From: Bradyrhizobium diazoefficiens
Lineage (GTDB): Bacteria; Pseudomonadota; Alphaproteobacteria; Rhizobiales; Xanthobacteraceae
Assembly: GCF_016616235.1 (NCBI RefSeq)
Contig: NZ_CP067100.1
Span: forward strand, 1,609,001-1,673,000
Reading direction: 5' to 3'
DNA: 64,000 bases
Notes under the pieces: model-generated
Seen by the model: only the letters and a program-made list of their open reading frames with translations
What the model was told of the DNA's origin: nothing
Databases searched by the model: none
Program-made: the position numbers and the translations under genes
Shown here: positions 6,267 through 53,427 of the stretch, piece after piece
Layout: each line of letters opens with the position of its first letter
Position numbering within the stretch: the first letter of the stretch is position 1

Positions 6267-6284
6267 GGTGGTGGCTCCAGTGTG

Positions 6285-6425: not shown

Positions 6426-6435
6426 GTGGTTTAAC

Positions 6436-7701: not shown

Positions 7702-8004
7702 GACCGTTCTCCCTGACATCGACCGCGCGTTCTCGTTGAATTCTGCGCTGCGGTATTTGATTTGCAATTACAGCCGGTTGTCTGCGCCGGAGCAAGGGCG
7801 AGTTTTGCCACATCCAACCTTTGCGAGCGGAATCGGGCGGACGTCACGTGGATGTGTCAACGTGATCTGCCGCACGCCGTTGGCCGGAGAATCCTGCGAG
7901 AAATCGACCACAATCGAGGCAAATCGAACCTGCCCATCTTGGGGATCGACCAATCCTTGATCTATAGTTTGCCCCTGACAGGTCCGCACCCCGAGGTTGC
8001 CGCC

Positions 8005-9159
8005 GTGAACGACATGCAATGGGCCCCCATCGGCTCCGAACCCCTGCCGCCGCCACTGCCGTCGACGCAGGTCGATTTCACCGGCGACCGCTCCGTGTTC
8101 CGGAAAATGGTCACCAAAGGTGCCATGCTGGAGCTCGTCACCTTCGGCTTCTACCGGTTCTGGCTGGTCACCGACATCCGCCGCCATCTGTGGTCGAACA
8201 CCGCGATCGACGGCGATGCCGCCGAATACACCGGCCGCGGCAAGGAGCTTTTGATCGGCTTCCTGTTCGCACTCGCGATCCTGATGCCGATCTACCTTGC
8301 CTATTTCCTCGTCGGTATCGAGTTCGAGCGCTGGCAGGGCTTTGCCTCGACGCCGCTGTTCATCAGCTTCTACGCCTTCGGCCAGTTCGCGATCTTTCGC
8401 GCGCGGCGCTACCGGCTGACCCGCACGGTCTGGCGCGGCGTGCGATTCTGGATGGACGGCTCGGGCTGGGCTTATTCATTCCGTGCCATGGCCTGGGGCC
8501 TGCTGGTGTTCCTCACGCTCGGCCTGGCGCTGCCCTGGCGCGAGGCTTCGCTCGAACGCTACAAGATGCGGCACACCTATTATGGCGATCTGCGTGGTGA
8601 CTTCGAAAGCGACGGCTGGACCTTCTTCAAGCGCGGCTGGTGGCTGTGGCTGCTCAGCCCGGTCGCGCTCGTCGTCTTCCCGCTCGCCCCGTTCTTCTAC
8701 GCCGAGTTCAAGGCGCGCGAATGGCGCTGGTGGCTCGACGGCATCCGCATCGGCGGCGTCAGCCTGTCCTCGGACCTCCCGCACAACGCGTTCTACGGCC
8801 TCTATTGGAAGGTGACCGGCTGGTCGCTGCTGCTGAGCACCATCTTCGGCTTCTATATCGGCGGGGCCACCGCTCTCGCTGTCAAGCTGAGTGGCCTTCC
8901 GGTCCAGCAGCTATTGGGTCCCAATGCTCACGCGAAGAGCATCCCCATGCTGGTGATGATGGTCGTCGGCTATTTCGCCCTCGCCCTTGCGCTCAACATC
9001 GTCATGCGGGTCTATCTGCAGCGCGACATCTGGGCCAGGGTGCTGGAGACCGTCGAGGTGCACAACATCGGAGCCGCGGCGGACGTGCGTGGCAGCGGCG
9101 AGCTTGCCAGCGCGCTCGGCGAAGGTTTTGCCGATGGGCTCGATGTCGCGGGATTCTGA
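8005..9159 (+). CDS. DUF898 (YjgN-like) integral membrane protein
   Basis: A 384-residue multi-pass membrane protein. The DUF898 signature is FGFYRFWLVTDIRRHLWSNTAIDGDAAEYTGRGKELLIGFL near the N-terminus, with a second half showing the same arrangement of W, R and aromatic residues. I see about six to eight hydrophobic helices. The GTG at 8005 is preceded by CGAGG; an ATG at 8014 is an alternative. The function of the family is not established. It sits 3 bp before the M48 protease gene, and in related genomes this pairing recurs, so the two are probably translated from one message. Confidence 0.85.
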   Translation: MNDMQWAPIGSEPLPPPLPSTQVDFTGDRSVFRKMVTKGAMLELVTFGFYRFWLVTDIRRHLWSNTAIDGDAAEYTGRGKELLIGFLFALAILMPIYLAYFLVGIEFERWQGFASTPLFISFYAFGQFAIFRARRYRLTRTVWRGVRFWMDGSGWAYSFRAMAWGLLVFLTLGLALPWREASLERYKMRHTYYGDLRGDFESDGWTFFKRGWWLWLLSPVALVVFPLAPFFYAEFKAREWRWWLDGIRIGGVSLSSDLPHNAFYGLYWKVTGWSLLLSTIFGFYIGGATALAVKLSGLPVQQLLGPNAHAKSIPMLVMMVVGYFALALALNIVMRVYLQRDIWARVLETVEVHNIGAAADVRGSGELASALGEGFADGLDVAGF

Positions 9160-9162
9160 GCT

Positions 9163-10272
9163 GTGAGTGAGTTGTCCACCGAGGCGCCGGCGCAGTCGGC
9201 CAAGCCGACCATCTTCTTCGATGGCGTGTCGAGCCGCCGGCGTCAGGTGAGGCTGGCGCTCGGGGATGCGCTCGAGATCGCTGAGGAGGGCGGGGCGCCG
9301 GTTCGCTGGGCCTATGCCGACATCCGCCGCGCCGACAGTCCGGCGGGCATCCTGCGGCTTGCCTGCACGACCGCGCCGCCGCTGGCGCGGCTCGAGATCC
9401 GCGATGCCGCGCTGGCCGCCGATGTGACCGCGCGCTGCATGCGCCTCGACGAGCACCAGACCTCGCGCCGCGGTATCGCAAAAATCGTCGGCTGGTCGGT
9501 GGCGGCCGCCATCTCCATCGTCTGCGTCGTCCTGTTCGGCGTGCCGCTCGCGGCCGATCGTCTCGCGCCGCTGGTGCCGAAGCCGATCGAGCGCCGCATC
9601 GGCGATGCCTCCGAAGTCCAGGTCAAGACCATCTTCGGCCGCAGCGTGTGCCAAGACCCCGCGGGCAAGGCCGCGTTCACGAAGCTCGTCAACCGCCTGC
9701 GCGATGCCGCGGGCCTCGACGACGATGCCATGACCGCTGGCGTGCTGCCGACTCCGGTGCCGAACGCGTTCGCGCTGCCCGGCGGCAAGGTGTACGTGCT
9801 GCGGGGGCTGCTCGACAAGGCGCAAGACCCTGATGAACTCGCCGGCATCCTCGCCCACGAGCTCGGCCATCTCAAGCATCACGACAACATGCGCGGGCTG
9901 ATCTACAATGGCGGCACCTCGTTTCTGATCGGCCTGCTGTTCGGCGACATCACCGGCTCATCCGCCGTGATCTTCGCTTCGCGCAGCGTGGTCGAAGCCT
10001 CCTATTCGCGCGAGGCGGAAACCGCCGCCGACACGTTCGCGATCGAGATCATGCACAAGCTCGGGCGCTCGCCGAAGCCCGCGGCCGAGCTGATGTTCCG
10101 CATCACCGGCAAAGAAGGCGGGAGCGGATTTACGATCTTGGCGAGCCACCCACTCACCGAAGACCGTCTCGCGCGCATGACGAAGGAGGACCGCCCCGCC
10201 AGCGGCCCGCCGCTCCTGACGGACAAGGAATGGCAGGCGCTGAAAGGGATCTGCGGCAGCGGGAAGATCTGA
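9163..10272 (+). CDS. M48-family zinc metallopeptidase, membrane-anchored
   Basis: A 369-residue protein starting with GTG. One transmembrane helix near residues 109-129 precedes the peptidase domain. The zinc site HELGH lies at about residues 232-236, and the third ligand glutamate lies in SREAETAADTFA near residue 284. This is the gluzincin arrangement of HtpX/Oma1/BepA-type proteases, which act on misfolded membrane or periplasmic proteins. The N-terminal 100 residues form a small soluble domain found in proteins paired with DUF898 partners. The immediate upstream neighbour is the DUF898 gene, so a joint envelope-quality role is a reasonable inference. Confidence 0.9.
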   Translation: MSELSTEAPAQSAKPTIFFDGVSSRRRQVRLALGDALEIAEEGGAPVRWAYADIRRADSPAGILRLACTTAPPLARLEIRDAALAADVTARCMRLDEHQTSRRGIAKIVGWSVAAAISIVCVVLFGVPLAADRLAPLVPKPIERRIGDASEVQVKTIFGRSVCQDPAGKAAFTKLVNRLRDAAGLDDDAMTAGVLPTPVPNAFALPGGKVYVLRGLLDKAQDPDELAGILAHELGHLKHHDNMRGLIYNGGTSFLIGLLFGDITGSSAVIFASRSVVEASYSREAETAADTFAIEIMHKLGRSPKPAAELMFRITGKEGGSGFTILASHPLTEDRLARMTKEDRPASGPPLLTDKEWQALKGICGSGKI

Positions 10273-10338
10273 GCTTTTCCCTCCGGAACAATCGCTCCAG
10301 ACAGGCATATCCTCTCTGACAACGACAGGATGTATCGC

Positions 10339-10830
10339 ATGTCTTATGGTCGCTTTGCCGCGATGATCGCGGCTTCCACGCTGATCATGTTCGGCCTGAT
10401 GTACCTCAACACGTTCGCCCTGGATCACGTCTGGTACAGCCAGACCCGGACCTGGATGGCGCTGCTGATGGGCGCAGTCATGGCCATCGTGATGCTCGGC
10501 TTCATGTGGGGCATGTACCGGAACCGGACCGCGAACGTGGTCATTCTGATAGCGGGTGCCGCCGTGTTCGCAATTTCGCTCTGGCTCGTTCGCAGCCAGG
10601 AGACGGTGTCCGACGTCGCCTACATGAAAGCGATGATCCCGCATCATTCGATCGCGGTGCTGACGAGCGAGCGCGCGCACATCCGCGATCCACGCGTGCG
10701 CAAGCTGGCTGACGGCATTATCGAGGCGCAAGTGCGGGAAATCGGCGAGATGGAACGTCTGATTGCCGACCTCAAGCAAAAGCCGGCGCCGGCCGATGCA
10801 AAGGACCTGCCGCCGAGACCGCCAACCTGA
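10339..10830 (+). CDS. DUF305-domain membrane protein
   Basis: About 163 residues from ATG 10339, which has AGGA eight bases upstream; an ATG three codons earlier is possible. Three hydrophobic helices fill residues 5-85. The DUF305 signature YMKAMIPHHSIAVLTSERAHIRDPRVRKLADGII follows, with the paired histidines that characterise this four-helix family, often linked to copper or other metals. A proline-rich tail ends the protein. It stands alone between the M48 gene and a convergent small membrane protein. Confidence 0.85.
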   Translation: MSYGRFAAMIAASTLIMFGLMYLNTFALDHVWYSQTRTWMALLMGAVMAIVMLGFMWGMYRNRTANVVILIAGAAVFAISLWLVRSQETVSDVAYMKAMIPHHSIAVLTSERAHIRDPRVRKLADGIIEAQVREIGEMERLIADLKQKPAPADAKDLPPRPPT

Positions 10831-10844
10831 GCGGCGAGAGCGCG

Positions 10845-11057
10845 TTACTTCGCCGGCGCGGCCGGCGCATTCGAGCCCGTGGTGACGTTCGGCGCAGTGC
10901 TCGGGTTCGAGGTCGTTGTCTGCGGACCAATCTCGCGTCCATTGTAGAAGAACACGGCCGCGACCACGGCGATCACGAAGATCGCGCCGATTGCCCAGCC
11001 GATCGGACTGTTGCGGCGGGTTCCGTCAACCCTGCGGTCGTCATCCTGATAGGTCAT
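10845..11057 (-). CDS. small single-pass membrane protein, unknown function
   Basis: A 70-residue protein. ATG 11057 was chosen because GGAGAG lies 5 bases upstream; two earlier in-frame starts lack this. It has a charged N-terminus rich in Asp and Arg (YQDDDRRVDGTRRN), a single helix WAIGAIFVIAVVAAVFFY at about residues 22-39, and a Thr/Ser/Pro/Ala-rich tail probably outside the membrane. It is convergent with the DUF305 gene. Proteins of this form are common in Bradyrhizobium and have no assigned role. Confidence 0.65.
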   Translation of the reverse strand: MTYQDDDRRVDGTRRNSPIGWAIGAIFVIAVVAAVFFYNGREIGPQTTTSNPSTAPNVTTGSNAPAAPAK

Positions 11058-11108
11058 GTCGCTCTCCATCATCCAGCGGAGAACCGCGCAGGATGGAAGG
11101 CGTTCCTA

Positions 11109-11157
11109 GAGCATGATCCGGAAAAGTGCGCAGCGGTTTTCCGAAAAGATCATGCTC
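11109..11157. repeat. Rhizobiales inverted repeat GAGCATGATC / GATCATGCTC
   Basis: GAGCATGATC at 11109-11118 and its exact reverse complement at 11148-11157 flank CGGAAAAGTG and CGGTTTTCCG, themselves an inverted pair. This element is widely dispersed in Bradyrhizobium and relatives. It lies in the gap between upp and the small membrane gene. Confidence 0.8.
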
Positions 11158-11167
11158 AAACAACAAC

Positions 11168-11199
11168 CTAAAGCGCGACGACGATTCGTCGCGCTTTAG
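11168..11199 (-). terminator. perfect hairpin overlapping the upp stop codon
   Basis: CTAAAGCGCGACGA and TCGTCGCGCTTTAG form a 14-bp perfect stem around a 4-base loop. The stem includes the upp stop codon (11196-11198). It lacks a long T run, so it may be an RNA 3'-end stabiliser rather than a strong intrinsic terminator. Confidence 0.6.
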
Positions 11200-11825
11200 C
11201 GCGTGCCGTAGGCGCGGTCGCCGGCGTCGCCAAGGCCAGGCAGAATGAAACCATTCTCGTCGAGGCCTTCGTCGACCGCAGCGGTCCAGATCGGCACGTC
11301 CGGATGCAGTCCGCGCAGCCGCTCCAGGCCTTCCGGCGCGGCAATCAGGCAGGCGAGGCGGATGTCCCTGGCGCCGCGTTCCTTCAACCGGTCCACGGCG
11401 GCGACGGCGGTGTTGGCGGTGGCGACGACAGGCGTCACAACGATGGCGAGGCGCTCGCCGAGATCGGACGGCGATTTGAAGAAGTACTCGACTGCGGCAA
11501 AGCTGTGCGGCTCGCGGTAGAGGCCGATATGGGCGACGCGCGCGGTCGGCACCAGGTCCATCATGCCGTCGACGAAGGTGGTGCCGGCGCGCAGCATCGG
11601 CACGAACACCAGCTTCTTGCCGGCGATTTTGGCCGAATGCATCGTTGCGAGCGGCGTCTCGATCACGGTGTCCGTGAGCGGCAGGTCGCGCGTCACCTCA
11701 TAGCAGAGCAGCATGCCGATCTCCTTGATCAGCTCGCGAAACGATTTGGTCGAGATGGACTTGTCCCGCACCAGCGTCAGCTTGTGCTGCACCAGCGGAT
11801 GATCGACGATGGTGACGCCTTCCAT
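11196..11825 (-). CDS. upp: uracil phosphoribosyltransferase
   Basis: A 209-residue UPRT, full length, which makes UMP from uracil and PRPP. Visible motifs are the family N-terminus [35 protein letters not shown], the PRPP-binding stretch [25 protein letters not shown], and the C-terminal [22 protein letters not shown]. The PRPP loop reads VTPVVAT where typical enzymes have DPMLAT, so the acidic residue is replaced; this is a noticeable deviation. AGGAG precedes the start by 9 bases. It is the last gene of a URC-type uracil degradation operon, where a UPRT paralogue (URC6 in yeast) acts catabolically. Confidence 0.92.
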
Positions 11826-15849: not shown

Positions 15850-17161
15850 TGTCCAGACCGGATAGATAGGTAACAGAGTAGACCGGATGGATGGGTGACA
15901 GTTCTCTGTCGGCTGGGAGGATCAGCCGATGCCTTGGCGGGAGAGCTGTACAATGGACGAACGAGTTCGCTTCATCTCGGATCAGCGAACCGGCTTGTGG
16001 ACGATGACGGAGCTTTGCGAGCGCTACGAGATTAGCCGCAAGACCGGTTATAAGTGGCTGGAGCGCTACCGGTTGGAAGGACCTGCCGGGCTGGCGGATC
16101 GCTCCCATGCCGCGCGGGTTCATGGACGGGCGACACCACAGCACATCGTGGATGCGATTGTGGGGCTGCGGCTTGAGCGGCCGAGCTGGGGACCGCGCAA
16201 GATCGTCAGCAAACTTGAGGCTCGCCAAGGGGACGTCGATTGGCCGTCGGCCTCGACGGCGGGCGGGATTCTCAAACGGGCGGGACTGGTGAGCAACCGT
16301 CGGACCCGGCGGCGTGCGCCGCCGCGCATGGGGCAACTGACGGTGCCTCAGCATGCCAACCATGTATGGGCGCTCGATCACAAGGGCTGGATCCGCCTGG
16401 GCGACGGATCTCGCGTTGAACCGTTCACGGTGACCGATGGCTTCAGCCGCTATTTGATTAGCCTGGCGGCGACGGGCAGCACGCAACATGCCGAGTGCCA
16501 ACCGCTGCTGGAGCGGGCGTTTCGCGAGTACGGCTTGCCGCAGATCATCCGCTCCGACAACGGCTCGCCGTTCGCCTCGACCGGAACCACGGGCCTGACG
16601 GCACTGTCGGTATGGTGGATCAAGCTTGGCATCCGCCATGAACGGATTGATCCCGGCCATCCACAGCAGAACGGCCGCCACGAGCGTTTTCACCTCACGC
16701 TTCTGGAGGCCATGCAGCCGCCGCCGCCGACCCAGGCCGCGCAGGCTCGTCGCTTCGCGGCATTCGTGCGCGACTACAACGAAGAACGACCGCACGAGTC
16801 ACTTGGCCAGCGCCCACCTGCCAGCGTCTATCAGCCTTCGTCTCGTGCGATGCCGAGGCGGCTTCCGGAGCCGGATTATCCAGCCGAAGCCGCGGTGCGC
16901 CAGGTCCGCTCCAACGGCGAGATCAAGTGGCGCGGCGAACTCATTCACATCTCCAGCGCTCTCATTGGTGAGGCCGTTGCCGTCGAGGAGGCCGCCGATG
17001 GGCAATGGCAAGTGCGCTTCTTCCACATACCGATCGGCATCATCGACCAGAAAACACGCAGGCTGCGGCGCTGCGCTAGCGCAGCGCCGCAGCCGACCAA
17101 ACCATGAACGATTGTTACCTATCCATCCGGTCTGTTTTGTTACCCATCCATCCGCTGGACA
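15850..17161 (+). mobile_element. complete IS481-family insertion sequence
   Basis: A 1312-bp element. Its ends begin TGTCCAG on the left (15850) and finish CTGGACA on the right (17161). Each end carries two tandem blocks similar to GACCGGATGGATGGGTAACA, inverted with respect to the other end. A TCGC direct repeat flanks it at 15846-15849 and 17162-17165, consistent with a target duplication. It landed in an intergenic GC-rich repeat downstream of the PLP enzyme. It has one intact transposase gene, so it looks recent and possibly active. Confidence 0.88.
15929..17107 (+). CDS. IS481-family transposase
   Basis: A 392-residue DDE transposase. The N-terminal helix-turn-helix is TMTELCERYEISRKTGYKWLERYRLEGPAGL. 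The catalytic rve domain has ALDHKGWI (first Asp), IIRSDNGSPFAS (second Asp) and HPQQNGRHERFHLTLLEAM (Glu). It also has the C-terminal YNEERPHESLGQRPPASVY typical of IS481. The frame may start at 15929 or at ATG 15953. No frameshift or stop is seen. Confidence 0.93.
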   Translation: MPWRESCTMDERVRFISDQRTGLWTMTELCERYEISRKTGYKWLERYRLEGPAGLADRSHAARVHGRATPQHIVDAIVGLRLERPSWGPRKIVSKLEARQGDVDWPSASTAGGILKRAGLVSNRRTRRRAPPRMGQLTVPQHANHVWALDHKGWIRLGDGSRVEPFTVTDGFSRYLISLAATGSTQHAECQPLLERAFREYGLPQIIRSDNGSPFASTGTTGLTALSVWWIKLGIRHERIDPGHPQQNGRHERFHLTLLEAMQPPPPTQAAQARRFAAFVRDYNEERPHESLGQRPPASVYQPSSRAMPRRLPEPDYPAEAAVRQVRSNGEIKWRGELIHISSALIGEAVAVEEAADGQWQVRFFHIPIGIIDQKTRRLRRCASAAPQPTKP

Positions 17162-27662: not shown

Positions 27663-27867
27663 TCGCCTGATCCTCTTCCGGATGCTGCCATCATGCTCCT
27701 GTTTTGCCCGACGGGTCAACGCGATTTCGGAAAATACGCAACCCATTGATCCGACTGAGGTCGGCTACTGTGCATGGGGTTGTTTTCGAAATTTTTGATT
27801 GAGACGGGTCTCGAACGCCGTAAGGCCGCGATGACGATCCGCAACCGGCAGGGTTCAGGAGGATGGA

Positions 27868-27912
27868 TGGTGGGCGCACAAGGGATCGAACCTTGGACCT
27901 CTCCCGTGTGAA
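27868..27912 (-). other. 3' half of tRNA-Val(CAC): island attachment-site remnant
   Basis: Read on the minus strand this is anticodon loop TTCACAC, stem GGGAG, variable AGGTC, T-stem CAAGG with loop TTCGATC and CCTTG, acceptor TGCGCCC, then A and CCA. The T-stem pairs perfectly. The 5' partner of the anticodon stem (expected CTCCC) is absent; the sequence reads TGTGG instead, so homology ends exactly at the anticodon loop. That is the usual crossover for tRNA-targeting integrases, and an integrase begins 260 bp away. The intact tRNA should be at the other end of the island and is not in this window. Confidence 0.8.
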
Positions 27913-28171
27913 CCACAATCCGTAGACCCGAGCCAACCAAATCCGGCCATAGTTGAGGTGTAAAAACTCTTTTTACTTGAATGTGTTGTGGCCATGTTGG
28001 ACCATAGGAGCCCATAGGTGGCCTTACTACATTTTGTATGCCCCCGTTGTGCCCGTCGCGGATTTTCCCTTGGGGCACAAAAAACGGGGGAGGTCTGAGA
28101 CCCGGTCTGTTCGAGGGCTGACCGCCCCTCTTGCGGGGCACACCGGGCCACACAGAGAGAGGCAAGAAATC

Positions 28172-29503
28172 ATGACGGCGCCAGCCAACCAGCTGACACT
28201 CACTGATGCGGTGATCCGCAACGCAACGCTGCCGCCGGGTAAGGCGCAGCATTATCTCCACGACGACAAGCTGCCCGGCCTCGCCTTGCGCATGCGCGCC
28301 ACCGGCGGCCGGACCTGGGTCTTCCTCTTCACCAAGCCGGGGGTGAGGGGGACCCAGCGCAAGACTCTCGGTGCGTGGCCCAAATATAATGAAAAGGCCG
28401 CGCGCAAGGCCGCCACCATCGCCGCAGGCGAGGTCGTCAAGGGCTTGGACCCGAACGACGCGAAGCGGGAGGCGAGGCGGCAACAGGCAGCCGAGAAGCA
28501 GCGCACCACGCTCGCGACCCTCATTGTTGAAGATGGTCCATACCAGACGTCCCTGACCGAACGTCAAGTTGTAAACTGGAAGCCAGCAATGTCGGCGCTG
28601 CGGCGCGGGCTCAAGGATAACGCCGAAAGCGGTGTGGGGGACCTGACGCGACGGCAGATCATGGCTGCGGTCGACAAGATTGCCAAGACCGGCAAGCGCG
28701 GTGCAGCTAGGGACTTGCGCAAGCACGTGCATACCTTCCTCGAATGGTGCGTCGGCGAAGGTTACGTCGAGCACAACGTGCTCGCTGGTTATCGCGCGCC
28801 CAAGGAAACCCGCGCGCAAAGGATCGGACGCCGAACGAAGGGTCGCGCGCTGACCGATGAGGAAATCATCAAGGTTTGGGATGCATGCGGCAAGCTCGGG
28901 GCTTTCGGTCTTCTGGCACGCATGTGCCTGCTTGGTGGCCCGCGCCGCAGCGAGCCTACCATGATCGAGTGGCGAAAGCACATCATGGACGAGCGTATCA
29001 CCTTCGATGCGGCGTGGACCAAGATGGGCTTGCACCACGATGTACCGCGCACTCACCTAGTTGACGAGGTGCTCGCGGCCGCGAAACATTTCCAGCGGGC
29101 AACCTCCGACTATGTCTTCCCGTCACCGAAGACCGGCGGCCAGATGTCCGGGTTCACCAAGATGGTCAACCGCCTGGTCAAGGAAGCGAGCGTCGCCAAG
29201 TTCACCATGCATGATCTAAGGCGCAGCCTGCGCACCATCATGTCACGCTGTGGCTACGACAACGAAATCCAGCGGCTGTGTGTTGGGCAAAAGCCAAGCG
29301 GAATCGATCAGGTATACAATCACGACGAACAGTGGATCATCCGCAAGATGGCGTTCGAAGCGGCTCACGACTACATTGCGGAGTTGGTTGGCGCCAAACG
29401 GGTCGGCAAAATCGTGCGCTTGCAGCGGACGAACCCGCTTGACCCGATCAAGGCCGAGCTCCTCGGCCGTCTCCGTGAGCATTATGCGGCTGAGGCGTCT
29501 TAG
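28172..29503 (+). CDS. tyrosine recombinase, P4-type integrase
   Basis: A 443-residue site-specific recombinase. The N-terminal DUF4102-type arm-binding domain is seen at residues 10-90 (YLHDDKLPGLALRMRATGGRTWVFLF). Catalytic residues include Arg in LLGGPRRSEPTMIEW, the HDLRRSLRTIMSRCG box, and the terminal Tyr in GIDQVYNHDEQ. ATG 28172 was chosen, since the upstream frame extension crosses the attachment region. Placement next to the tRNA-Val fragment fits integration of this island at that tRNA. Confidence 0.93.
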   Translation: MTAPANQLTLTDAVIRNATLPPGKAQHYLHDDKLPGLALRMRATGGRTWVFLFTKPGVRGTQRKTLGAWPKYNEKAARKAATIAAGEVVKGLDPNDAKREARRQQAAEKQRTTLATLIVEDGPYQTSLTERQVVNWKPAMSALRRGLKDNAESGVGDLTRRQIMAAVDKIAKTGKRGAARDLRKHVHTFLEWCVGEGYVEHNVLAGYRAPKETRAQRIGRRTKGRALTDEEIIKVWDACGKLGAFGLLARMCLLGGPRRSEPTMIEWRKHIMDERITFDAAWTKMGLHHDVPRTHLVDEVLAAAKHFQRATSDYVFPSPKTGGQMSGFTKMVNRLVKEASVAKFTMHDLRRSLRTIMSRCGYDNEIQRLCVGQKPSGIDQVYNHDEQWIIRKMAFEAAHDYIAELVGAKRVGKIVRLQRTNPLDPIKAELLGRLREHYAAEAS

Positions 29504-31310: not shown

Positions 31311-31475
31311 CGGATCCACGGTCGGCGTTTCCCGCCGGTCTCGCAAATAGCTTTGTGCGATTCTTCCCAGAGCAGCGGCTAGGCACGCTGCCGCGGTGAG
31401 GGAAACCATTTTCCAAGACTCGGAAATGGTCGAAGCCCGTTGAGAGCTAATGACTCGCAACGTGCAATGCTATTT

Positions 31476-31504
31476 GCCCCACATAGGCGACGATGTGGGG
31501 CTTT
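31476..31504 (+). terminator. intrinsic terminator-like hairpin
   Basis: GCCCCACAT (31476-31484) and ATGTGGGGC (31493-31501) form a 9-bp perfect stem followed by TTTGGCTT. It insulates the following defence operon from upstream transcription. Confidence 0.65.
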
Positions 31505-31549
31505 GGCTTAGTCAGCGGAGTTGAGCCGCTCCTCATTTCATGATGACAC

Positions 31550-31565
31550 TCAGCTAATTAGCTGA
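31550..31565. promoter_or_regulatory. perfect 16-bp palindrome upstream of the XRE gene
   Basis: TCAGCTAATTAGCTGA is a perfect palindrome, 43 bp before the XRE start. An AT-rich TGTTATAAAAT at 31571-31581 could be a -10 element, which would place the palindrome over the -35 region. This is the expected position for an autorepressor operator of the XRE protein encoded directly downstream. Confidence 0.6.
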
Positions 31566-31608
31566 TATGCTGTTATAAAATACAAGAGGCCAGAGCCAGA
31601 GAAAGAAT

Positions 31609-31938
31609 ATGAGTCTAGATATGTCGTCCTTCGGACGCGCAATCGCTTCAGCACGCAAGCAGAGGGCCATGAGTCAAAAGGAGCTGGCGGCAAAGGTCGT
31701 TAAGGAAGACGGCGAAGCTATAACTCCCCAGTATCTGAATGATATTGAACACGATCGAAGGAATCCTTCATCGGATCATCTGGTAAGTGAGTTTGCAAAG
31801 GTTCTGAAAATAGATCCGCTGGCTTTGTACGGACTGATTGGAATGCTCCCCGAGCAAGACCGGAAGCTCATAAGAAAGTCCACTCCCGACCAGGTCAACC
31901 AAGCGTTCGTTGCGTTTCGGAGGCACTTGAAAGGATAG
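31609..31938 (+). CDS. XRE-family helix-turn-helix regulator
   Basis: A 109-residue protein with the lambda-repressor-like fold: FGRAIASARKQRAMSQKELAAKV, the recognition segment ITPQYLNDIEHDRRNPSSDHLVSEFAKVLKIDPLALYGL. It is followed 3 bp later by an ImmA/IrrE protease gene. In ICEBs1 and Deinococcus, such pairs consist of a repressor and the protease that cleaves it on a damage or mating signal. Here the pair heads the ubiquitin-like operon, so it probably controls it. Codon use is less GC-biased than in the flanking chromosome. Confidence 0.88.
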   Translation: MSLDMSSFGRAIASARKQRAMSQKELAAKVVKEDGEAITPQYLNDIEHDRRNPSSDHLVSEFAKVLKIDPLALYGLIGMLPEQDRKLIRKSTPDQVNQAFVAFRRHLKG

Positions 31939-31941
31939 CTC

Positions 31942-32646
31942 TTGAGGTACGTTCGCGACACGATGCATGGGTTTCGGGAAAGGCCACACTACGAGCCTGC
32001 CGAGCTTGATTCCATGTTTGAGAAGATCGTGGCGGAACATTTGCGGAGCAAGCACGGCAAGGTCGAATTTCCCATCTCGACCGACGATATTACCACCCTG
32101 ATCGAACGCGATGTGGCAGATCTCGACCAGTACGCTGACCTGACGATATACGGCACCGGCGTGGAGGGCGTGACGGAATTCGCCCGCACGGGGAAGCCGA
32201 AGGTGTTGATCTCCAATGATGTTCACAGGGTCGAGAACCGGCTGCGCACCACCCTCACCCATGAATACGGACACGTTATCCTGCACGCCTACCTTTTCGC
32301 ACTGGAGCAGCGCCGGCTACCGGTAGACGGCAATCGGAAGCCCAATGCCATCTATTGCAAGCGGGACACGATGATTTCCGCGAGCAAGACAGACTGGATG
32401 GAGTGGCAGGCCGGATATGTATCCGGCGCCGCCCTCATGCCGAAGACCTACGTCCAGAAGATTGTTGGTGAAATCCAGCGGGAGCGCAACATTTACGGGC
32501 CCTCGCTGCCGACGAGTGAGAACGGCCTAGCGCTTATCGGCGCGGTCGTGAATGGCTTTTCCGTGTCGCGCGAAGCGGCCACCGTGCGACTGAAGATTCT
32601 TGGCTTCCTTGGTCAAGAACTCGCGACGGGCAACCTTTTCTCCTGA
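31942..32646 (+). CDS. ImmA/IrrE-family metallo-endopeptidase
   Basis: A 234-residue protein from a TTG start 3 bp after the XRE stop, hence translationally coupled. The zinc motif HEYGH is at residues 107-111 (RTTLTHEYGHVILHAY). The third ligand probably lies in TDWMEWQAGYVSGAALMP (Glu near 154), as in family members with an E-x2-A-x2-FA-like helix. The family inactivates XRE-type repressors by cleavage. No membrane segment is seen. The partner relation to the adjacent regulator is inferred from the arrangement. Confidence 0.9.
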   Translation: MRYVRDTMHGFRERPHYEPAELDSMFEKIVAEHLRSKHGKVEFPISTDDITTLIERDVADLDQYADLTIYGTGVEGVTEFARTGKPKVLISNDVHRVENRLRTTLTHEYGHVILHAYLFALEQRRLPVDGNRKPNAIYCKRDTMISASKTDWMEWQAGYVSGAALMPKTYVQKIVGEIQRERNIYGPSLPTSENGLALIGAVVNGFSVSREAATVRLKILGFLGQELATGNLFS

Positions 32647-32742
32647 AATCAATGGTTTGCCAGCCTATTGACTCGGCTGTCGCTTGGCGTAAAATACGCT
32701 AATCAGCATATCCGCGGACTGTTTGATGAAGGAGACGGCAAT

Positions 32743-33594
32743 ATGAGCGAAGCGAATCAGGAAGGTCATCAGGAGCCCATTGAGGCGGGGCCCAAGGGCC
32801 GCGAGGCCTGCGGGCATGATGAAGTCAAAGCCCTGCACGACGTTGAGGAGGCCAAGGCCGACATCGACAAGGCCAAGGGGGAGATCCGGCACGGGATGGA
32901 AGACCTGAACGCGGCAGAGCAAGAGTTCGATACCGCCGAGCATGAGCTTGAGGAGGCCCACCACCACCCGAAGGTCATTCATTTCTCGGTAGACGGGGAG
33001 AACTACGAGACCGAACAGCGCAACTGGACGCCGAACGAGATCATCAAGGACTTTTCCGGTCTGGATATCGCGACCCACTACCTCATCGAAACCGATCCCC
33101 ATCATCAGGCCAGCTTTCAGGGCAAGGGCGACGTTCCCTTCCAGTTGCACGAGGGCGCGCGCTTCCAGGTGATCTCAGTCGGGCCGGCTCCGGTCTCCGA
33201 CGGGACCGCAAGAACCGGGGTGCCCTTCTTCATGGCGGGTCTGAAATCACTTGGTTTCAATCCCACGGTCGTCCCCGGCAAGTCCGAGCACGTCTACTTC
33301 GCCTATGAAATCCCGACCGGCAATTTCGCCGGGCGGCAGGTGCAGCTTGGCTTGATCGTGCCGGCGGATTTCCCGATGACATCGCCCGGCGGAATCCACG
33401 TGTCGCCGAGGTTTTATCCCAACCGGGGCGGAGGCACACACCCGACGGGTGGCATTCACGACAGCGCGGACTTTCAGAACGCGCTGGGCGGTGAATGGCA
33501 ATACTGGTCTCGCCCCTACAGCAACTGGGGCGCCGCGAAGAAGGCGGTAGCCACCTACATGAGCCACGTCTGGAAATTGTGGGACACGCAATGA
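32743..33594 (+). CDS. ubiquitin-like domain fused to E2-like (Prok-E2_E type) domain
   Basis: A 283-residue protein with AAGGAG before ATG 32743. Residues 25-75 are a charged helical/coiled-coil stretch. Residues 76-148 match the bacterial multiubiquitin-type beta-grasp pattern: VIHFSVDGENYETEQRNWTPNEIIKDFSGLDIATHYLIETD. Residues 158-283 look like a prokaryotic E2 family E domain, with LGLIVPADFPMTSPGGIHV, the HPTGGIHD stretch and WQYWSRPYSNWG near the C-terminus. The only cysteine is Cys23, outside both domains, so the E2-like part has no thioester cysteine. Ub-like tail cleavage or a scaffolding role must be considered. The next gene overlaps by ATGA, so the products are made together. Confidence 0.78.
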   Translation: MSEANQEGHQEPIEAGPKGREACGHDEVKALHDVEEAKADIDKAKGEIRHGMEDLNAAEQEFDTAEHELEEAHHHPKVIHFSVDGENYETEQRNWTPNEIIKDFSGLDIATHYLIETDPHHQASFQGKGDVPFQLHEGARFQVISVGPAPVSDGTARTGVPFFMAGLKSLGFNPTVVPGKSEHVYFAYEIPTGNFAGRQVQLGLIVPADFPMTSPGGIHVSPRFYPNRGGGTHPTGGIHDSADFQNALGGEWQYWSRPYSNWGAAKKAVATYMSHVWKLWDTQ

Positions 33595-35078
33595 CAAAGG
33601 CCGTCCGAGGTGCGGCCATGTCTGAGTCGGTCGACGCGCTGGGGCGACGTCACCTGTTGCGCGCCGACCGGCAGGAAGATCTCTGCTTTGCGCTCTGGCA
33701 CCCGAGCACCGGGCAGACGAGGACGACTGCTCTCGTTGAACGGCTCATCTTGCCGACGGAGGGCGAGCGAAACGTCCACGGCAACGCCAGCTTCGAATCC
33801 CACTACTTCACACGGGCCCTTTCAGAAGCTGCGCAGGCGGGCGCCGGCTTAGCCCTGATGCACAGTCATCCAGGCGGGTTATCCTGGCAGGGCATGAGCA
33901 CGGATGACGTCAATACGGAGCAAGGTCATGCTGCAGCCGTCTATGGCGCAACGGGGCTTCCGTTTGTCGGCTTGACGATCGCAGGCGATGGAGCCTGGAG
34001 CGCCCGATTCTGGGAGCGCACGGCACCGCGGCAGTACGCGAGACGGGACTGCGCCACCGTTCGCGTGGTTGGAGAAAGGCTTCGATCGACGTTCATGGAG
34101 GCTCTCGCACCCGTCCCGCGCGGAACAGAGGCACAGATTCGAACGATTTCCGCCTGGGGAAAGAAGAAACAAGCCGATCTCGCGCGGCTCCGGGTGGGCA
34201 TCGTCGGAGCAGGCAGTGTGGGCGCCTTCATCGCCGAGGGCATGGCCCGTTCCGGGATTGAAGATGTTACGGTGATCGATTTCGACAGGATCGAGACTAA
34301 GAATCTGGACCGCCTCCTGTACGCGCGGAGGGGTAACGTCGGCGCGCTAAAAGCGAACGGACTTGCTGACCACTTGGGCGAATGCGCAACGGGAGCGCGA
34401 TTCGACGCCATTCCGGTGGTCGCCGCCGTGTACGAGGATGCCGGCTTTCGCGCTGCGCTGGATTGCGACATTCTGTTTTCCTGCGTTGACCGCCCCTGGG
34501 GGAGGCATGTCCTCAATTTGATTGCCTATGCTCACCTAATCCCTGTCATTGATGGTGGAATTTCCGTTCGCACAAACCGGCATGAGGAATTGGCCGCAGC
34601 TGACTGGCGCGCTCATACAGTCACCGTGGGGCATCAATGTATGCAATGCATCGGCCAGTACGATGCCGGGCTGGTTCAACTGGAACGAGAGGGCTACCTG
34701 GATGACCCGACCTACATCCAGGGATTGGACAAGGGCCATCCGCTGAAAGCTCGGGAGAACGTATTCGCGTTTTCGATGGCTTGCGCGAGTCTTCAGACGC
34801 TCCAGATGCTTGCAATGGTCCTCGATCCCCTCGGCCGGTCGAACCCGGGTCAGCAGCTCTATCATTTCGTCGGCAGCTTCATGGAGCCAAGTCAACACGG
34901 GAAATGCAGCCCCGAATGTCTGTTTGCCGACATCATCGCACTCGGGGATCACTGCGGGTTTGAGGTGACTGGCGCTCCTCCAGCGAACAGAGACCCTGTC
35001 GTAGAGAAGTTGCCTGAGCCGGTGCCGAGCCTGTTCCAACGAATCTCGCGCGCGGTCAAACGCCTTTTCATCGGCTGA
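33591..35078 (+). CDS. JAB (JAMM) peptidase fused to E1-like ThiF domain
   Basis: A 495-residue fusion whose ATG overlaps the previous stop (ATGA). Residues 1-140 form a JAB/MPN domain with His91 and His93 in MHSHPGG, Ser103 and Asp106 in MSTDD, and an upstream Glu near 57. It is a zinc-dependent isopeptidase signature. Residues 195-450 are an E1-like adenylating domain: nucleotide loop GIVGAGSVG (206-211), Asp230, and NLDR at 238-241. Two cysteine pairs, Cys350/Cys353 and Cys439/Cys443, form the structural zinc site. A basic tail ends the protein. With the fused ubiquitin-like/E2 partner, this makes a complete conjugation-deconjugation set in two genes, similar to predicted bacterial defence operons. 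Confidence 0.88.
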   Translation: MTKAVRGAAMSESVDALGRRHLLRADRQEDLCFALWHPSTGQTRTTALVERLILPTEGERNVHGNASFESHYFTRALSEAAQAGAGLALMHSHPGGLSWQGMSTDDVNTEQGHAAAVYGATGLPFVGLTIAGDGAWSARFWERTAPRQYARRDCATVRVVGERLRSTFMEALAPVPRGTEAQIRTISAWGKKKQADLARLRVGIVGAGSVGAFIAEGMARSGIEDVTVIDFDRIETKNLDRLLYARRGNVGALKANGLADHLGECATGARFDAIPVVAAVYEDAGFRAALDCDILFSCVDRPWGRHVLNLIAYAHLIPVIDGGISVRTNRHEELAAADWRAHTVTVGHQCMQCIGQYDAGLVQLEREGYLDDPTYIQGLDKGHPLKARENVFAFSMACASLQTLQMLAMVLDPLGRSNPGQQLYHFVGSFMEPSQHGKCSPECLFADIIALGDHCGFEVTGAPPANRDPVVEKLPEPVPSLFQRISRAVKRLFIG

Positions 35079-35100
35079 TGGGTGAGCCAGGGACCGACTC

Positions 35101-35490
35101 ATGCGCTTCGACCTTCCAGTCGATGTAGGCACGTTCGAGATCCCGGACGATTGGTGGCACTTCGCCGAAATGGAGCACTTCCGTCCCAGTCCTGGCGGCT
35201 ATTACCCATACAAGATCCGGCCGGAGAATGACATTGACGTAGTGCCGATCACCGACATCGAGCCGCCTCGACGCGATCCCGGCGTACCGATGCTGAAGAA
35301 GTTCAAGATGATGCCGGTCCTCTTCGCATTCCAGTCTCCCGAATGCGCGCTCCCGGCCGTAGAGGTCTATCTCGCGACCTCTGGTCCGTACCGATTCACG
35401 GTGCACAACGGCTTTCACCGATTCTACGCTTCGGTAGCCGCAGGATATAAGCACCTGCCAGTCCTTATTTGCGAACCTCTCGACCTCTGA
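35101..35490 (+). CDS. ParB/sulfiredoxin-like domain protein
   Basis: A 129-residue protein 22 bp downstream of the JAB-E1 gene, so it is the likely last gene of the operon. The C-terminal half shows VVPITDIEPP, then PAVEVYLATSGPYRFTVHNGFHRFYASVAAGYKHLPVLI. This has the ParB/Srx layout, where a conserved G-x-HR sits in the nucleotide pocket. Such domains bind CTP or ATP and occur in defence and partition proteins. The N-terminus IPDDWWHFAEMEHF is unfamiliar. Function in this system is unknown. Confidence 0.6.
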   Translation: MRFDLPVDVGTFEIPDDWWHFAEMEHFRPSPGGYYPYKIRPENDIDVVPITDIEPPRRDPGVPMLKKFKMMPVLFAFQSPECALPAVEVYLATSGPYRFTVHNGFHRFYASVAAGYKHLPVLICEPLDL

Positions 35491-35523
35491 TGCGCGTCAA
35501 ATCTCCGCCCACTCGACCACAAA

Positions 35524-35690
35524 CTCAATCTGGCGCGGTTCTATTGCGTCTCAGGCCTACTTCCGTGTGGGGACTGCATCCATTGCGCGACCAGTGGGAC
35601 GGGGGATTTTGACCCGACGCGGGTCGGCCAAGTATGTCGGACGGGCGGAGCCTCCTCCGCCGCTCATCCTTTGCGTCTCCTGAACCCTCT
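35524..35690. repeat. cassette-boundary repeat, copy A
   Basis: TGGCGCGGTTCTATTGCGTCTCAG, then TGCATCCATTGCGCGACCAGTGGGACGGGG and later GGAGCCTCCTCCGCCGCTCATCCTT. The same order of motifs is found at 39387-39590 with strong identity. The gap 35491-35830 holds no gene. It sits directly upstream of the DUF262 gene. Confidence 0.75.
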
Positions 35691-35830
35691 CTGGCAGTGA
35701 ATGGCGCCATCCGAGGATGTCGCTTTGCACGGAGCGCCGCTGAAAAATACGTTGCCTTCTGTTCACAACCGAAAATAGTATCCCTCCAGCGGCTTGCGGT
35801 ATACATTGCCTCCGGAGGAATTTTTGGAAG

Positions 35831-37510
35831 ATGACTCGCCATACGATCGAAGCTAACGAGAAGCCGATACTTGATATCTTTTGCGACAAGTACCTTTTCA
35901 GTATCCCGTCCTACCAGCGGCCGTATGCCTGGACGACCGAACAGGCGAGCGAACTGCTTGATGACATAACGACTGCCTGCGGCGACACGGCAGACGTCGC
36001 CAATGCGAGTCCGTACTTTCTTGGCAGTATTGTCCTGATCAAGAACCCACAGGCGCCGGAAGCCGATGTTGTGGACGGCCAGCAGCGCCTAACGACGATA
36101 ACCATTCTCCTTTGCGTCCTCCGGGACCTGGCGGATGCGAAAATCGGTCAGGCGATCCATAAGTACATCTGCCAAACGGGCGACCCGATTAAGGAAACGG
36201 ATGATGTTTTCCGGTTAGCACCCAGGGAGCGCGATGCCGAGTTCTTCCGATCGATGATCCAGACGATTTCGCAGACGGGAAGTCTGCCTGACGCCCGGCA
36301 GTTTTCCGATTCACGCGCACGCATGATCGAAAATGCGGCGTTCTTCCGCGAGAAACTGAAGGACGTACCTGACCAGCAGCGACGGCGGCTCACCATGTAC
36401 ATCGCTCAGCGGTGTTATCTGGTCATAGTGGCGGCTTCCGATCAGGAATCAGCCTTCCGGATATTCTCGGTCCTGAATTCCCGCGGCCTGGACTTGTCTC
36501 CAGCAGACATTCTTAAGGCCGAAATCATCGGCGCTCTCCCAGGCGACAAGCAAGATGACTACAACAGCATCTGGGAAGACATTGAGGACGAGCTGGGGAG
36601 GTCGCGATTCGCCGAACTTTTCGGCCACATCCGGATGATCCATCGAAAGCAGAAAATGCAGGGCACACTGATCGCGGAGTTCCGCGAGTTCGTACCGACC
36701 CGAAAGAACCCTGCAGACTTCATCAAGAAGGAATTGTCGCCCTACGCCGATGCCTATGAGCAAATCACTGATAAGAGCTTTGTCAGCTTTAAGCACGCCG
36801 ATGAAATCAACCGCGAGTTGACCCACCTCTCTCGCCTGGACAACTTCGACTGGCAGCCGCCGGCGATCGAAGTCATTGCGCGAAAGAGAGAGAGCCCCGA
36901 ATTTATTCTTCGCTTCTTGTCGGACCTGGAGCGGCTCGCCTACGGCCTTTTCCTCATGAGGAGCGATCCGTCCGAGCGTATCCGGCGTTACGGTAAGCTT
37001 CTCGGTTCAATTCAGGCCAGTGACGACCTATTCGCGGCCGAGTCGCCTCTACAGTTGAGCGTTGACGAGAAGAGATTCGTGCGGGAAGCCTTGCAGGGCG
37101 ACATCTACAGAGTCACGCGCATTCGCTTGCCGCTCCTCCTCCGTCTCGACGAGCTGCTGTCCGGTGGCAGCGCCGTCTACAATCAGCCGATCGTCACCGT
37201 CGAACACGTACTTCCCCAAAACCCCTCCGAGGGAAGTCAATGGCTGACTGACTTCCCGGATGCGCCGGAGCGAGACCGATGGGTACATAAGCTCGCCAAC
37301 CTGGTCCTTCTCACCCGCCGCAAGAACTCCCAGGCGAGCAACTTTGATTTCGTCGATAAGAAGGAGAAGTACTTCGCGATGAAAGCTGGCGTCGCCAATT
37401 TCGCGATCACGAGCAACGTCCTGAAGGAAAAGGAGTGGACGGTCGCAACGCTGGAGCGGCGCCAAGCGGAGATCCTTGGTGCTATTGCCCAGCTCTGGAG
37501 GCTTGATTGA
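35831..37510 (+). CDS. DUF262/DUF1524 (GmrSD-like) nuclease
   Basis: A 559-residue protein with GGAGGAA before the start. The N-terminal DUF262 (ParB-like NTPase) has PSYQRPYAWTTEQASELLDDI at residues 26-46 and VDGQQRLTTITILLCVLRDL near 79-98. The C-terminal DUF1524 HNH-type nuclease has the catalytic VEHVLPQNPSEGSQW near 457 and NLVLLTRRKNSQASN. This is the architecture of type IV restriction enzymes of the GmrSD class, which cut modified phage DNA. It is a single polypeptide, as in fused members. The length matches the family. It is flanked by the boundary repeats, consistent with a mobile defence cassette. Confidence 0.9.
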   Translation: MTRHTIEANEKPILDIFCDKYLFSIPSYQRPYAWTTEQASELLDDITTACGDTADVANASPYFLGSIVLIKNPQAPEADVVDGQQRLTTITILLCVLRDLADAKIGQAIHKYICQTGDPIKETDDVFRLAPRERDAEFFRSMIQTISQTGSLPDARQFSDSRARMIENAAFFREKLKDVPDQQRRRLTMYIAQRCYLVIVAASDQESAFRIFSVLNSRGLDLSPADILKAEIIGALPGDKQDDYNSIWEDIEDELGRSRFAELFGHIRMIHRKQKMQGTLIAEFREFVPTRKNPADFIKKELSPYADAYEQITDKSFVSFKHADEINRELTHLSRLDNFDWQPPAIEVIARKRESPEFILRFLSDLERLAYGLFLMRSDPSERIRRYGKLLGSIQASDDLFAAESPLQLSVDEKRFVREALQGDIYRVTRIRLPLLLRLDELLSGGSAVYNQPIVTVEHVLPQNPSEGSQWLTDFPDAPERDRWVHKLANLVLLTRRKNSQASNFDFVDKKEKYFAMKAGVANFAITSNVLKEKEWTVATLERRQAEILGAIAQLWRLD

Positions 37511-39386: not shown

Positions 39387-39590
39387 CAATTCAGCGCGGT
39401 TCTATTGCGTCTCAGCCCTACTCCCGTGAGGAGCTGCATCCATTGCGCGGCCAGTAGGACGGGGAATTTGGGACCGAAGCGCGTCAGCGCAAGGCATCCA
39501 ACCGTATCCCGGAGGGTCCCTCGGTCGGAGCCTCCTTGCCCTGCCGCTCATCCTTCGTTCCTCAAGGAATTCCCGTCCGGCCGCGATTGG
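39387..39590. repeat. cassette-boundary repeat, copy C
   Basis: CAGCGCGGTTCTATTGCGTCTCAG, TGCATCCATTGCGCGGCCAGTAGGACGGGG, and GGAGCCTCCTTGCCCTGCCGCTCATCCTT repeat copy A in the same order, 3.86 kb away, with a short extra segment in the middle. No gene is present in 39239-39623. It precedes the small gene at 39624. Confidence 0.75.
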
Positions 39591-39623
39591 CGCAGCCGGT
39601 AAAACCAAACGGGAGTACCGAAG

Positions 39624-39824
39624 ATGAAACGCAACGAAAAGAAACCGGCGCCGCATGCGGTCTATGTGATCGAGGGAGAAGGTGACAACGCCTTCTGGAC
39701 CAAGATCGGCGCAGCCTGGGAGCATCAGGACGGCAAGGGCTTCAACATCCAGCTCAGCTGCCTGCCCCTGAATGGCCGCCTGGTCATTCGCGAGCCCAAG
39801 GCCGACGCGGAGGCGGGGCGATGA
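39624..39824 (+). CDS. small conserved protein of mobile elements
   Basis: A 66-residue protein, MKRNEKKPAPHAVYVIEGEGDNAF then WTKIGAAWEHQDGKGFNIQLSC and PLNGRLVIREPKA. GGGAG precedes it. The domain is known from alphaproteobacterial plasmids and ICEs near methyltransferase and replication genes, with no assigned function. It overlaps the next, broken gene by ATGA and shares ancestry with the frameshifted copy at 31150. Confidence 0.75.
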   Translation: MKRNEKKPAPHAVYVIEGEGDNAFWTKIGAAWEHQDGKGFNIQLSCLPLNGRLVIREPKADAEAGR

Positions 39825-51765: not shown

Positions 51766-53427
51766 TCAGGCGGCTTGCTGATCGGCGGACTTGCCGGCTT
51801 GGTGCAGGAGGTTCCGTTCCCAGGGCAGCAGTTCGCGCAGACGCGAGGTGGGAAGATCAGCGATCCGGGCGAGGACGTCGGCGAGCCAAGCCTTGGGATC
51901 GACGTCGTTGAGGCGACAGGTCGTGATCATCGTCAGCATGATAGCTGCACGATCGGCGCCACGCTGGCTGCCAGCGAAGGTCCAGTTGCGCCTTCCCAAT
52001 GCAATGCCTCTCAATGGACGCTCAGCGCAATTGTTGGTCAAGCAAATCCTGCCATCGTCGAGGAAGCGGACGAAGTCGTCCCAGCGCTTAAGCATGTAGT
52101 TCATGGGCTTCAGGACCTCGGCGGAGCGCGAGAGGCTTTCTCGCTCGCGGAGCAGCCAGTCGTGCATGTCGTCGAGCAGCGGCTTGCTCCGCTCCTGGCG
52201 CACGGCACGCCGCTCGTCGGCACTGCGGCCGTTGATGGCGCGCTCGATCTCGAACAACGCATCCAGACGTCTTACCGCCTCCAGCGCGATCGGGGAGACC
52301 GGTTTGCCCTTGCCTTCCCGGGCGGCTTTCTCGATGTCAGCCAGCTCGAAGAATCCCCGCCGCGCATGGGCCAGGCAAAATGCCGGCGTGATCGGCATTG
52401 CTTTCCTTTTTGGGTCGAACAACGGCTCGAAGCCGCCATAGCAATCCGCCTGCAGAATGCCGGCGAAGGCGGCCAGATGCCTCTGAGGATTTTCGCCCCG
52501 TCGGTTGCCCGAGGCATAATAGACCGCCGCCGGCGGCGCAGGCCCGGCGAACGGCCGGTCATCCCGCACATACGTCCAGATCCGGCCGGTCGTGCATTTG
52601 CCCTTCGCCAGGATGCGGATGGTGGTGTCGTCGCCATGAAGGCGCTCGGCTGCGAGCACATGACGCTCGATCAGCTGGAACAGCGGCATGACGGCGAAGG
52701 TTCCGTGGCCGACCTGGTCGGCCAGCGTCGACAGCGGCAGATCGATCCTCTCGGCCTTGAAGCGCACGCTCTGGCGGTTGAGCGGGATATGCATGCCGAA
52801 CTTGTCGAACAGAATCGTCGCCAGCAATTGTGGGCCGATGAAGCCGCGCGGCGTCGCATGGAACGGTGCCGGCGGCTGGCTGATCTTCTCGCAATCGCGG
52901 CAGGTGAACTTCTCGCGTACCGTCTCGATGACCTTAAAGCGACGCGGAATCTCCTCCAGCGTCTTGGTCACATCCTCGCCGACCTTCGCCAGCCGCGATC
53001 CACCGCAGCAGGCGCAGGTCGTTGGAGCCTCGATGACGACGCGCTCACGTTCGATGTCGTCCGGCCACGGCTTGCGCACCGGCCGCTTGCGCGTGAAGGC
53101 GCTCACGCTCTGGGTTTTTGCCGCGGCAGCCTGCGCAGCCAGCTCATTCTCGGTCGCCGTGGTGGCGAGTTCTTCGAGCTCCAATTCCAACTGCTCGAGT
53201 AGCCGCGCCGTGCGCTCGGAGCGCTGCCCGTGCAGTTCGCGTTTGAGCTTCTCGATCCGTAGCTCAAGATGAGCGATCAGCACCTCGCTGTCCGACAGCT
53301 CCGCCCGCGCGTTGGCGGCATCCGCGACTGCTACATCGCGTTCAGCCTGCAACGCCTCGCGCTCGGCCAGCAGCGCAAGGTAGGCGCTTGCGAGATCCGA
53401 CGGAAGATCGTCCGGCTTCGATGTCAT
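51766..53427 (-). CDS. IS66-family transposase (TnpC)
   Basis: A 553-residue DDE transposase. The N-terminal coiled coil (LLAEREALQAERDVAVADAANARAELSDSEVLIAHLELRIEKL) precedes the zinc-binding CACCGG and the DDE domain. Catalytic segments include LHGDDTTIRI, QADCYGGFEPLF and ERPLRGIALGRRNW with the terminal NCAERPL. Full length and intact. Confidence 0.94.
   Translation of the reverse strand: MTSKPDDLPSDLASAYLALLAEREALQAERDVAVADAANARAELSDSEVLIAHLELRIEKLKRELHGQRSERTARLLEQLELELEELATTATENELAAQAAAAKTQSVSAFTRKRPVRKPWPDDIERERVVIEAPTTCACCGGSRLAKVGEDVTKTLEEIPRRFKVIETVREKFTCRDCEKISQPPAPFHATPRGFIGPQLLATILFDKFGMHIPLNRQSVRFKAERIDLPLSTLADQVGHGTFAVMPLFQLIERHVLAAERLHGDDTTIRILAKGKCTTGRIWTYVRDDRPFAGPAPPAAVYYASGNRRGENPQRHLAAFAGILQADCYGGFEPLFDPKRKAMPITPAFCLAHARRGFFELADIEKAAREGKGKPVSPIALEAVRRLDALFEIERAINGRSADERRAVRQERSKPLLDDMHDWLLRERESLSRSAEVLKPMNYMLKRWDDFVRFLDDGRICLTNNCAERPLRGIALGRRNWTFAGSQRGADRAAIMLTMITTCRLNDVDPKAWLADVLARIADLPTSRLRELLPWERNLLHQAGKSADQQAA

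Follow-up and report, generated by a model that had tools for sequence, protein, structure and literature searches.

The closest described counterparts of the operon reported here, which lies on the plus strand at 31609-35490 of a 64,000-nucleotide stretch of the Bradyrhizobium diazoefficiens genome (contig NZ_CP067100.1, positions 1,609,001 to 1,673,000; hereafter the window), are the bacterial type 6e and Bub systems, built from ubiquitin-like (Ubl), E2-like, JAB and E1 domains. In the passages of Iyer 2006 (PMC1779556) covered here, type 6e comprises a JAB-E1 fusion, a Ubl protein with between one and three domains and a metal-binding protein, together with an E2/RWD-like domain that is without cysteine, is either fused to the Ubl or encoded between it and JAB-E1, and is called likely catalytically inactive; those passages give neither a controller nor the end of the Ubl. 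For Bub, the covered sections of a later study (EMBO J 2026, PMC13373217) place the controllers CapW or CapH+CapP on 219 of 544 operons, describe how CapP is activated by single-stranded DNA (ssDNA) and then cleaves CapH, and state that phage protection has not been demonstrated. The two-fusion layout of our locus, Ubl-E2 and JAB-E1 behind an XRE repressor and an M78 protease, is the type 6e/Bub layout and is already known. What is new, as judged from sequence, is an operon on a branch distinct from that of classical Bub, with a predicted serine-ended Ubl and a tight tie to an M78 protease. We think it fairly probable that this is an island-borne operon of the 6e/Bub kind for ubiquitin-like conjugation and deconjugation, on a diverged branch and under a CapH/CapP-type switch.

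The five genes are all open, at the positions and on the strand given in a preliminary description of this DNA. The first (31609-31938; P0003, 109 residues) encodes a CapH-like XRE repressor with an HTH_3 match of 34.2 bits (Pfam cut-off 23). Its stop lies 3 bp before the start of the gene for a CapP-like M78/ImmA metallopeptidase (31942-32646; P0004, 234 residues; HEYGH at residue 107; Peptidase_M78, 24.4 bits against a cut-off of 22; PADLOC capP, 1.8e-11), which begins with TTG, as do its orthologues at the related loci L001 and L012. The Ubl-E2 fusion follows (32743-33594; P0001, 283 residues), overlapping as ATGA with the gene for a BubCD-like JAB-E1 fusion (33591-35078; P0005, 495 residues), and 22 bp further on comes an optional fifth gene, for a protein of ParB/sulfiredoxin fold (35101-35490; P0002, 129 residues). 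Both the 3-bp gap and the overlap are as the preliminary description gave them.

It had also proposed profile searches, of which those with Prok-E2_E (28.2 bits, cut-off 25) and ThiF (94.7 bits, cut-off 28.1; 6.2e-27) gave matches above the Pfam cut-off, whereas Prok-JAB stayed below it in the JAB-E1 protein (14.8 against 25) and the Multi_ubiq hidden Markov model (HMM) had no match in the Ubl protein. The JAB assignment thus depends on homology to Citrobacter BubCD (PDB 9ea4, 3.5e-20) and on invariant catalytic residues, and the Ubl assignment on the predicted fold; membership of the Multi_ubiq family is not supported by its HMM, and neither the Ubl nor the Ubl-E2 protein gave a trusted match when its sequence was searched against the PDB. 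In the AlphaFold2 (AF2) model of the fusion a long N-terminal helix (residues 25-74; 32815-32964) precedes a β-grasp Ubl domain and its tail (residues 77-152; 32971-33198) and an E2-like domain with a W-S-R motif and no cysteine (residues 159-283; 33217-33591). Superposition matches the Ubl and the E2-like domain of the predicted fold to multi-ubiquitin Bil/Bub proteins and to BubB. The identification of the protein encoded from 32743 as Ubl plus E2-like, on which the preliminary description had staked its reading beforehand, holds on profile, fold and superposition taken together. By its predicted domains the locus is of the 6e/Bub kind: a β-grasp Ubl, a cysteine-free E2/RWD-like domain fused to it, and a JAB domain ahead of E1.

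Homology of the JAB-E1 protein to Citrobacter BubCD counts for this reading, and the residues expected of such an enzyme are intact. An alignment of JAB-E1 proteins from this branch has 17 rows, one for the window and 16 for relatives. In it E29, H91, H93, S103 and D106, which we take to be the JAMM residues, are invariant, as are G206, G208, G211, D232, N238, R241, K254 and D300, presumably the adenylation residues. The zinc-type cysteines C350, C353, C439 and C443 are likewise unchanged in all 17; the preliminary description had named His91, His93 and Asp106 for the JAMM domain and had noted zinc cysteine pairs. C292 and C298 are also invariant in these rows, C298 being present in actinobacterial and classical rows too. 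L002 and L005 were left out of alignment and tree since in each the JAB-E1 frame is broken into two (4839-6331 and 8609-10111, respectively), through decay or sequencing error, and the L030 fragment was dropped from the tree. In the resulting tree of 33 rows, the 17 serine rows fall on one side of a branch (support 82/79), adjoining four alanine rows, and the two together (100/99) are separate from the classical group (100/99). Eight rows carry the label glycine, the junction itself being observed in six; L025 and L026 received the label from kinship alone, both have E2 as a separate gene, and the genome of L026 encodes a Ubl that ends in SPSHS. The tree tool gave long-branch warnings for L053 and for L025/L026. 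The window's own genome has a single JAB-E1 match at E 1e-5.

Classical Bub of Citrobacter and Enterobacter (PDB 9ea4, 9ea5, 9ea8, 9eae, 9eav and 9d59) shares with the window the order of a Ubl-E2 fusion followed by a JAB-E1 fusion, the cysteine-free E2-like domain with W-S-R, the JAMM residues and the E1 motifs. It differs in having several Ubl domains, where the window's protein has one, and in a tail that reads -NNG|E instead of -VS|D; the window's E1, for its part, carries zinc-type cysteines, its JAB-E1 lies on a separate branch, and no DUF6527 gene was found. Type 6e is alike in its JAB-E1 fusion and its cysteine-free E2/RWD-like domain, fused or separate, but its DUF6527-like metal-binding protein Y was not found in the window's branch. 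A two-sequence HMM, searched at E 1, detected DUF6527 in neither the window nor 23 other loci (18 of this branch), some of whose contigs end near the operon, and matched only its own sources, L054 and L055. These last are plasmid loci of Bradyrhizobium septentrionale (L054) and Enterobacter (L055) with the classical form, multi-Ubl-E2, JAB-E1 and DUF6527. Actinobacterial plasmid relatives (L049-L052) resemble the window in Ubl, E2-like and JAB-E1 proteins (the last 40-43% identical) and in an M78 gene nearby, known from annotation for L049-L051 and from Pfam for L052; they differ in having separate genes and a Ubl that ends in -VA. A haloarchaeal plasmid relative, L053, has a Ubl ending in RS, an E2-like protein and JAB-E1; the annotation places a Piwi-domain gene close by. 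The preliminary description was right that a ubiquitin-like set is held in two fusion proteins behind a repressor-protease pair, but its view of this compression as an unusual version does not stand: the same two fusions occur in L054 and L055, type 6e has them in the covered passages of PMC1779556, and the controllers recur on Bub operons in those of PMC13373217. Two features had escaped it, the lack of cysteine in the E2-like domain and the serine end of the Ubl.

Ubiquitin-like proteins activated by an E1 are generally expected to have glycine as their C-terminal residue, and solved Citrobacter BubA has one. The Ubl tail of this branch seems, on sequence comparison, to end in serine instead. 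The predicted end in the window, and the proposed JAB cut S152|D153, fall at Ser152 (codon 33196-33198), as indicated by alignment, by free-standing Ubl genes and by superposition. Ser152 is invariant in all 34 aligned Ubl-E2 proteins. Free-standing Ubl genes stop at, or soon after, the conserved "-V-S", the end being exact in 65 of 120 relatives among those listed (tail counts include P0250, P0283, P0286 and P0295, added by eye); in the four actinobacterial relatives the Ubl ends in "-V-A" without exception. We hold the chances to be about even that there exists a widespread branch of E1-activated Ubl proteins that end in serine (alanine in Actinobacteria), in which JAB cuts after the serine, E1 activates the serine carboxylate and the relay runs without an E2 cysteine, under an M78 protease switch; it would extend over Proteobacteria, Acidobacteria, Bacteroidota, Gemmatimonadota, Patescibacteria and at least one uncultured archaeon. 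Such a branch is not mentioned, at the level of titles and abstract openings, in a limited literature search, and may still be published.

Could the mature Ubl end instead at Gly154, in PVSDG, by ordinary Bub chemistry and in the manner of the NNG of Citrobacter BubA, with the serine being part of a recognition motif only? The window does have this glycine two residues past Ser152, the BubA chain in PDB 9d59 stops at the corresponding glycine, and classical NG|E junctions are seen in L029, L033, L036, L037, L054, L055 and L062. Gly154, however, is present in only 22 of the 34 aligned fusions that all have Ser152, in the free-standing genes with an exact end the serine codon is the last and no glycine follows, and it is Ser152, not Gly154, that superposes on the last glycine of BubA, although that stretch of the model is of low confidence. 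We therefore think a glycine end unlikely.

The E2-like domain raises a different question. Since it contains no cysteine at all, a thioester-forming E2 is rejected, and the aligned E2-like domains have no cysteine in common; what they share is a W/H-S-R motif, in 13 of 14, the exception being the haloarchaeal one. MoeB/ThiF and MccB are models for adenylation that serves sulfur carriage or the modification of small molecules or peptides, and the E1 domain here, MoeB/ThiF-like and with zinc-type cysteines, might adenylate the Ubl tail to such an end, with the E2-like domain as a scaffold and no protein-protein conjugation. The want of a catalytic cysteine and a serine end that is odd for a conjugated Ubl both favour this, as does the verdict of likely inactivity on the type 6e E2 in the part of Iyer 2006 (PMC1779556) covered. 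Yet a JAB domain with its ligands intact in all 17 rows fits deconjugation, and the locus matches Bub domain by domain, for which protein conjugation is stated in the title of Ye 2026. On balance an adenylation-only role appears doubtful, and we retain conjugation and deconjugation of the 6e/Bub kind.

The second new feature is the tie between this core and its controller. As in the CapH+CapP controllers described in the covered part of PMC13373217, an XRE repressor and an adjacent M78 protease with HExxH adjoin an immune-type operon, although the window's XRE protein has only a weak match to PADLOC capH (1.5e-4). We compared 19 loci (the window, L001-L016, L056 and L057), fetched by similarity to Ubl-E2 or JAB-E1 and not by the controller; 18 are informative, the contig of L010 starting at the Ubl gene, and not all are independent (for example the window, L001 and L012, or L002, L004 and L011). 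An M78 gene adjoins the core in all 18, with one small frame between them in L006. In 15 loci it was recognised by Pfam above cut-off. L001 and L012 gave BLAST matches to the window's protease, and in L011, where the gene is a contig-end fragment with no Pfam match, it was recognised by eye. A recognisable helix-turn-helix (HTH) partner is present in 15 of the 18, by eye only in seven of them, and was not seen in L005, L006 and L057. The linkage of the XRE/ImmA pair to the core, as the preliminary description proposed, is upheld for the M78 gene, and since the loci were not fetched by the controller it counts for a CapH/CapP-type switch.

Two promoter-like sites lie in 31400-35700, no more than shuffled sequences give (mean 1.7). 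P1, ahead of capH (31543-31571; ATGACA, 17 bp, TATGCT), contains within its spacer a predicted CapH operator, the perfect palindrome TCAGCTAATTAGCTGA (31550-31565), and P2, ahead of Ubl-E2 (32668-32695; TTGACT, 16 bp, TAAAAT), is followed just past its -10 by a second predicted CapH site, GCTAATCAGC (32698-32707), which copies the palindrome in part. The -35 spacing of P2 is not kept in L012. With up to one mismatch allowed, the palindrome occurs nowhere else in the 7.67-Mb genome. L001 and L012 retain it as ATCAGCTAATTAGCTGAT, and L008 retains part of it; GCTAATCAGC, too, is retained in L001 and L012. As the window holds seven perfect palindromes of at least 16 bp, TCAGCTAATTAGCTGA included, the argument for an operator depends on position, conservation and the contrast with L056. 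There the core is 84-91% identical to the window, the XRE and M78 pair is a different one, divergently placed, and neither operator half-site was found in the 2.5 kb examined; this joint change of pair and operator also counts for a CapH/CapP-type switch. A 34-bp perfect palindrome lies elsewhere in the window, at 17061-17094.

XRE/M78 pairs are common regulators of integrative elements and an integrase lies upstream, but that the pair is island housekeeping, beside an unrelated Ubl operon by chance, is very improbable given an M78 gene at every informative locus, across several phyla, whichever strand it lies on and whether separate or fused, an operator-like site in the Ubl-E2 promoter too, and a conserved DNA block that begins 70 bp (L012) to 233 bp (L001) upstream of capH. 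We infer that a CapH/CapP-type switch controls the operon, with ssDNA-activated cleavage of the repressor predicted here. In calm cells CapH would shut both promoters; ssDNA from damage or phage replication would activate CapP, which would cut CapH and turn the operon on. JAB would then cut the fusion after Ser152, yielding a Ubl that ends in -GPAPVS and a free E2-like partner, and the E1 domain would adenylate the carboxyl group of that serine. Lacking cysteine, the E2-like domain may bring the activated Ubl to target proteins by way of the conserved serine of W-S-R, or as a scaffold only, and JAB could also reverse the linkage. The operon would probably serve in phage defence or in a response to damage, with the ParB-fold protein as an accessory.

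The AF2 model of that protein (pLDDT 91.7) matches ParB/Noc and sulfiredoxin and has the ParB N-terminal fold (Foldseek 7bnr_A, E 6.2e-4, TMq 0.49) with the box NGFHR. The alignment to this fold covers about 85 columns; the HTH and dimer domains of ParB are lacking from its 129 residues, and sequence searches of PDB, Pfam, NCBIfam and PADLOC gave no match. The gene occurs in 6 of 257 genomes of the genus, and beside the core only in the window's own and in G388 (the source of L001), so that its status as a fixed member of the operon is rejected; the five-gene order sought elsewhere by the preliminary description recurs in L001 alone. A distant homologue stands in L081 beside an XRE and M78 pair and a different Ubl system, with ParB-like, M78-like, HTH, Multi_ubiq, E2-like, JAB, E1 and AAA ATPase frames at 5834-11620, assigned by eye except for Multi_ubiq (Pfam) and the ParB-like homologue.

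The operon lies, on the evidence of its neighbours, on an island that carries at least one further gene of defence type, encoding a GmrSD-type restriction protein directly downstream (35831-37510; PADLOC Orf5, 9e-179). About 2 kb upstream is a tyrosine integrase (27953-29503, plus strand; Arm-DNA-bind_3, Phage_integrase), and beside it the 46-bp 3' end of a tRNA-Val(CAC) gene (27867-27912, minus strand), which matches fully in the region of an intact tRNA-Val gene at 6.43 Mb and is a probable attachment-site remnant of the island; the window holds no complete tRNA. An IS66 transposase lies at 51766-53427. The blocks conserved by blastn span 31376-35490 in L001, 31539-35065 in L012 and 32795-35150 in L056, the last ending 50 bp into the ParB-like gene, which suggests that the controller, the core and the ParB-like gene are each gained and lost as a unit. 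The window and L012 share a stretch of 400 bp, 75% alike, which is found 4 kb downstream in the window (39402-39795) but directly after JAB-E1 in L012 (10473-10854), as if the ParB-like, GmrSD and DUF900 genes had been gained or lost between the two. A dCTP deaminase-like gene stands behind the operon in L008 (10303-10869; Pfam DCD) and L005 (10276-10737; by eye). The core is rare, being present in 2 of 347 genomes of the order; among 265 of the genus, 6 have JAB-E1 at 66% identity or more (both counts include the window's own), and 65 have any match. Plasmids gave no Ubl-E2 relative at E 1e-3, and 136 plasmid records have a JAB-E1 match, every one below 60% identity. A search of 50,697 phage records gave no relative, and of 33 stretches that matched a pattern in viral contigs none was confirmed, which leaves the idea of a phage-borne operon unsupported.

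If the serine end is true, a natural branch of serine- or alanine-ended Ubl proteins, whose free-standing genes call for no processing step, would reveal how far ubiquitin-like chemistry stretches, and its small, expressible two-protein systems would allow activation and transfer to be studied without an E2 cysteine. The swapped controller of L056 is a natural test case for how immune operons exchange their switches.

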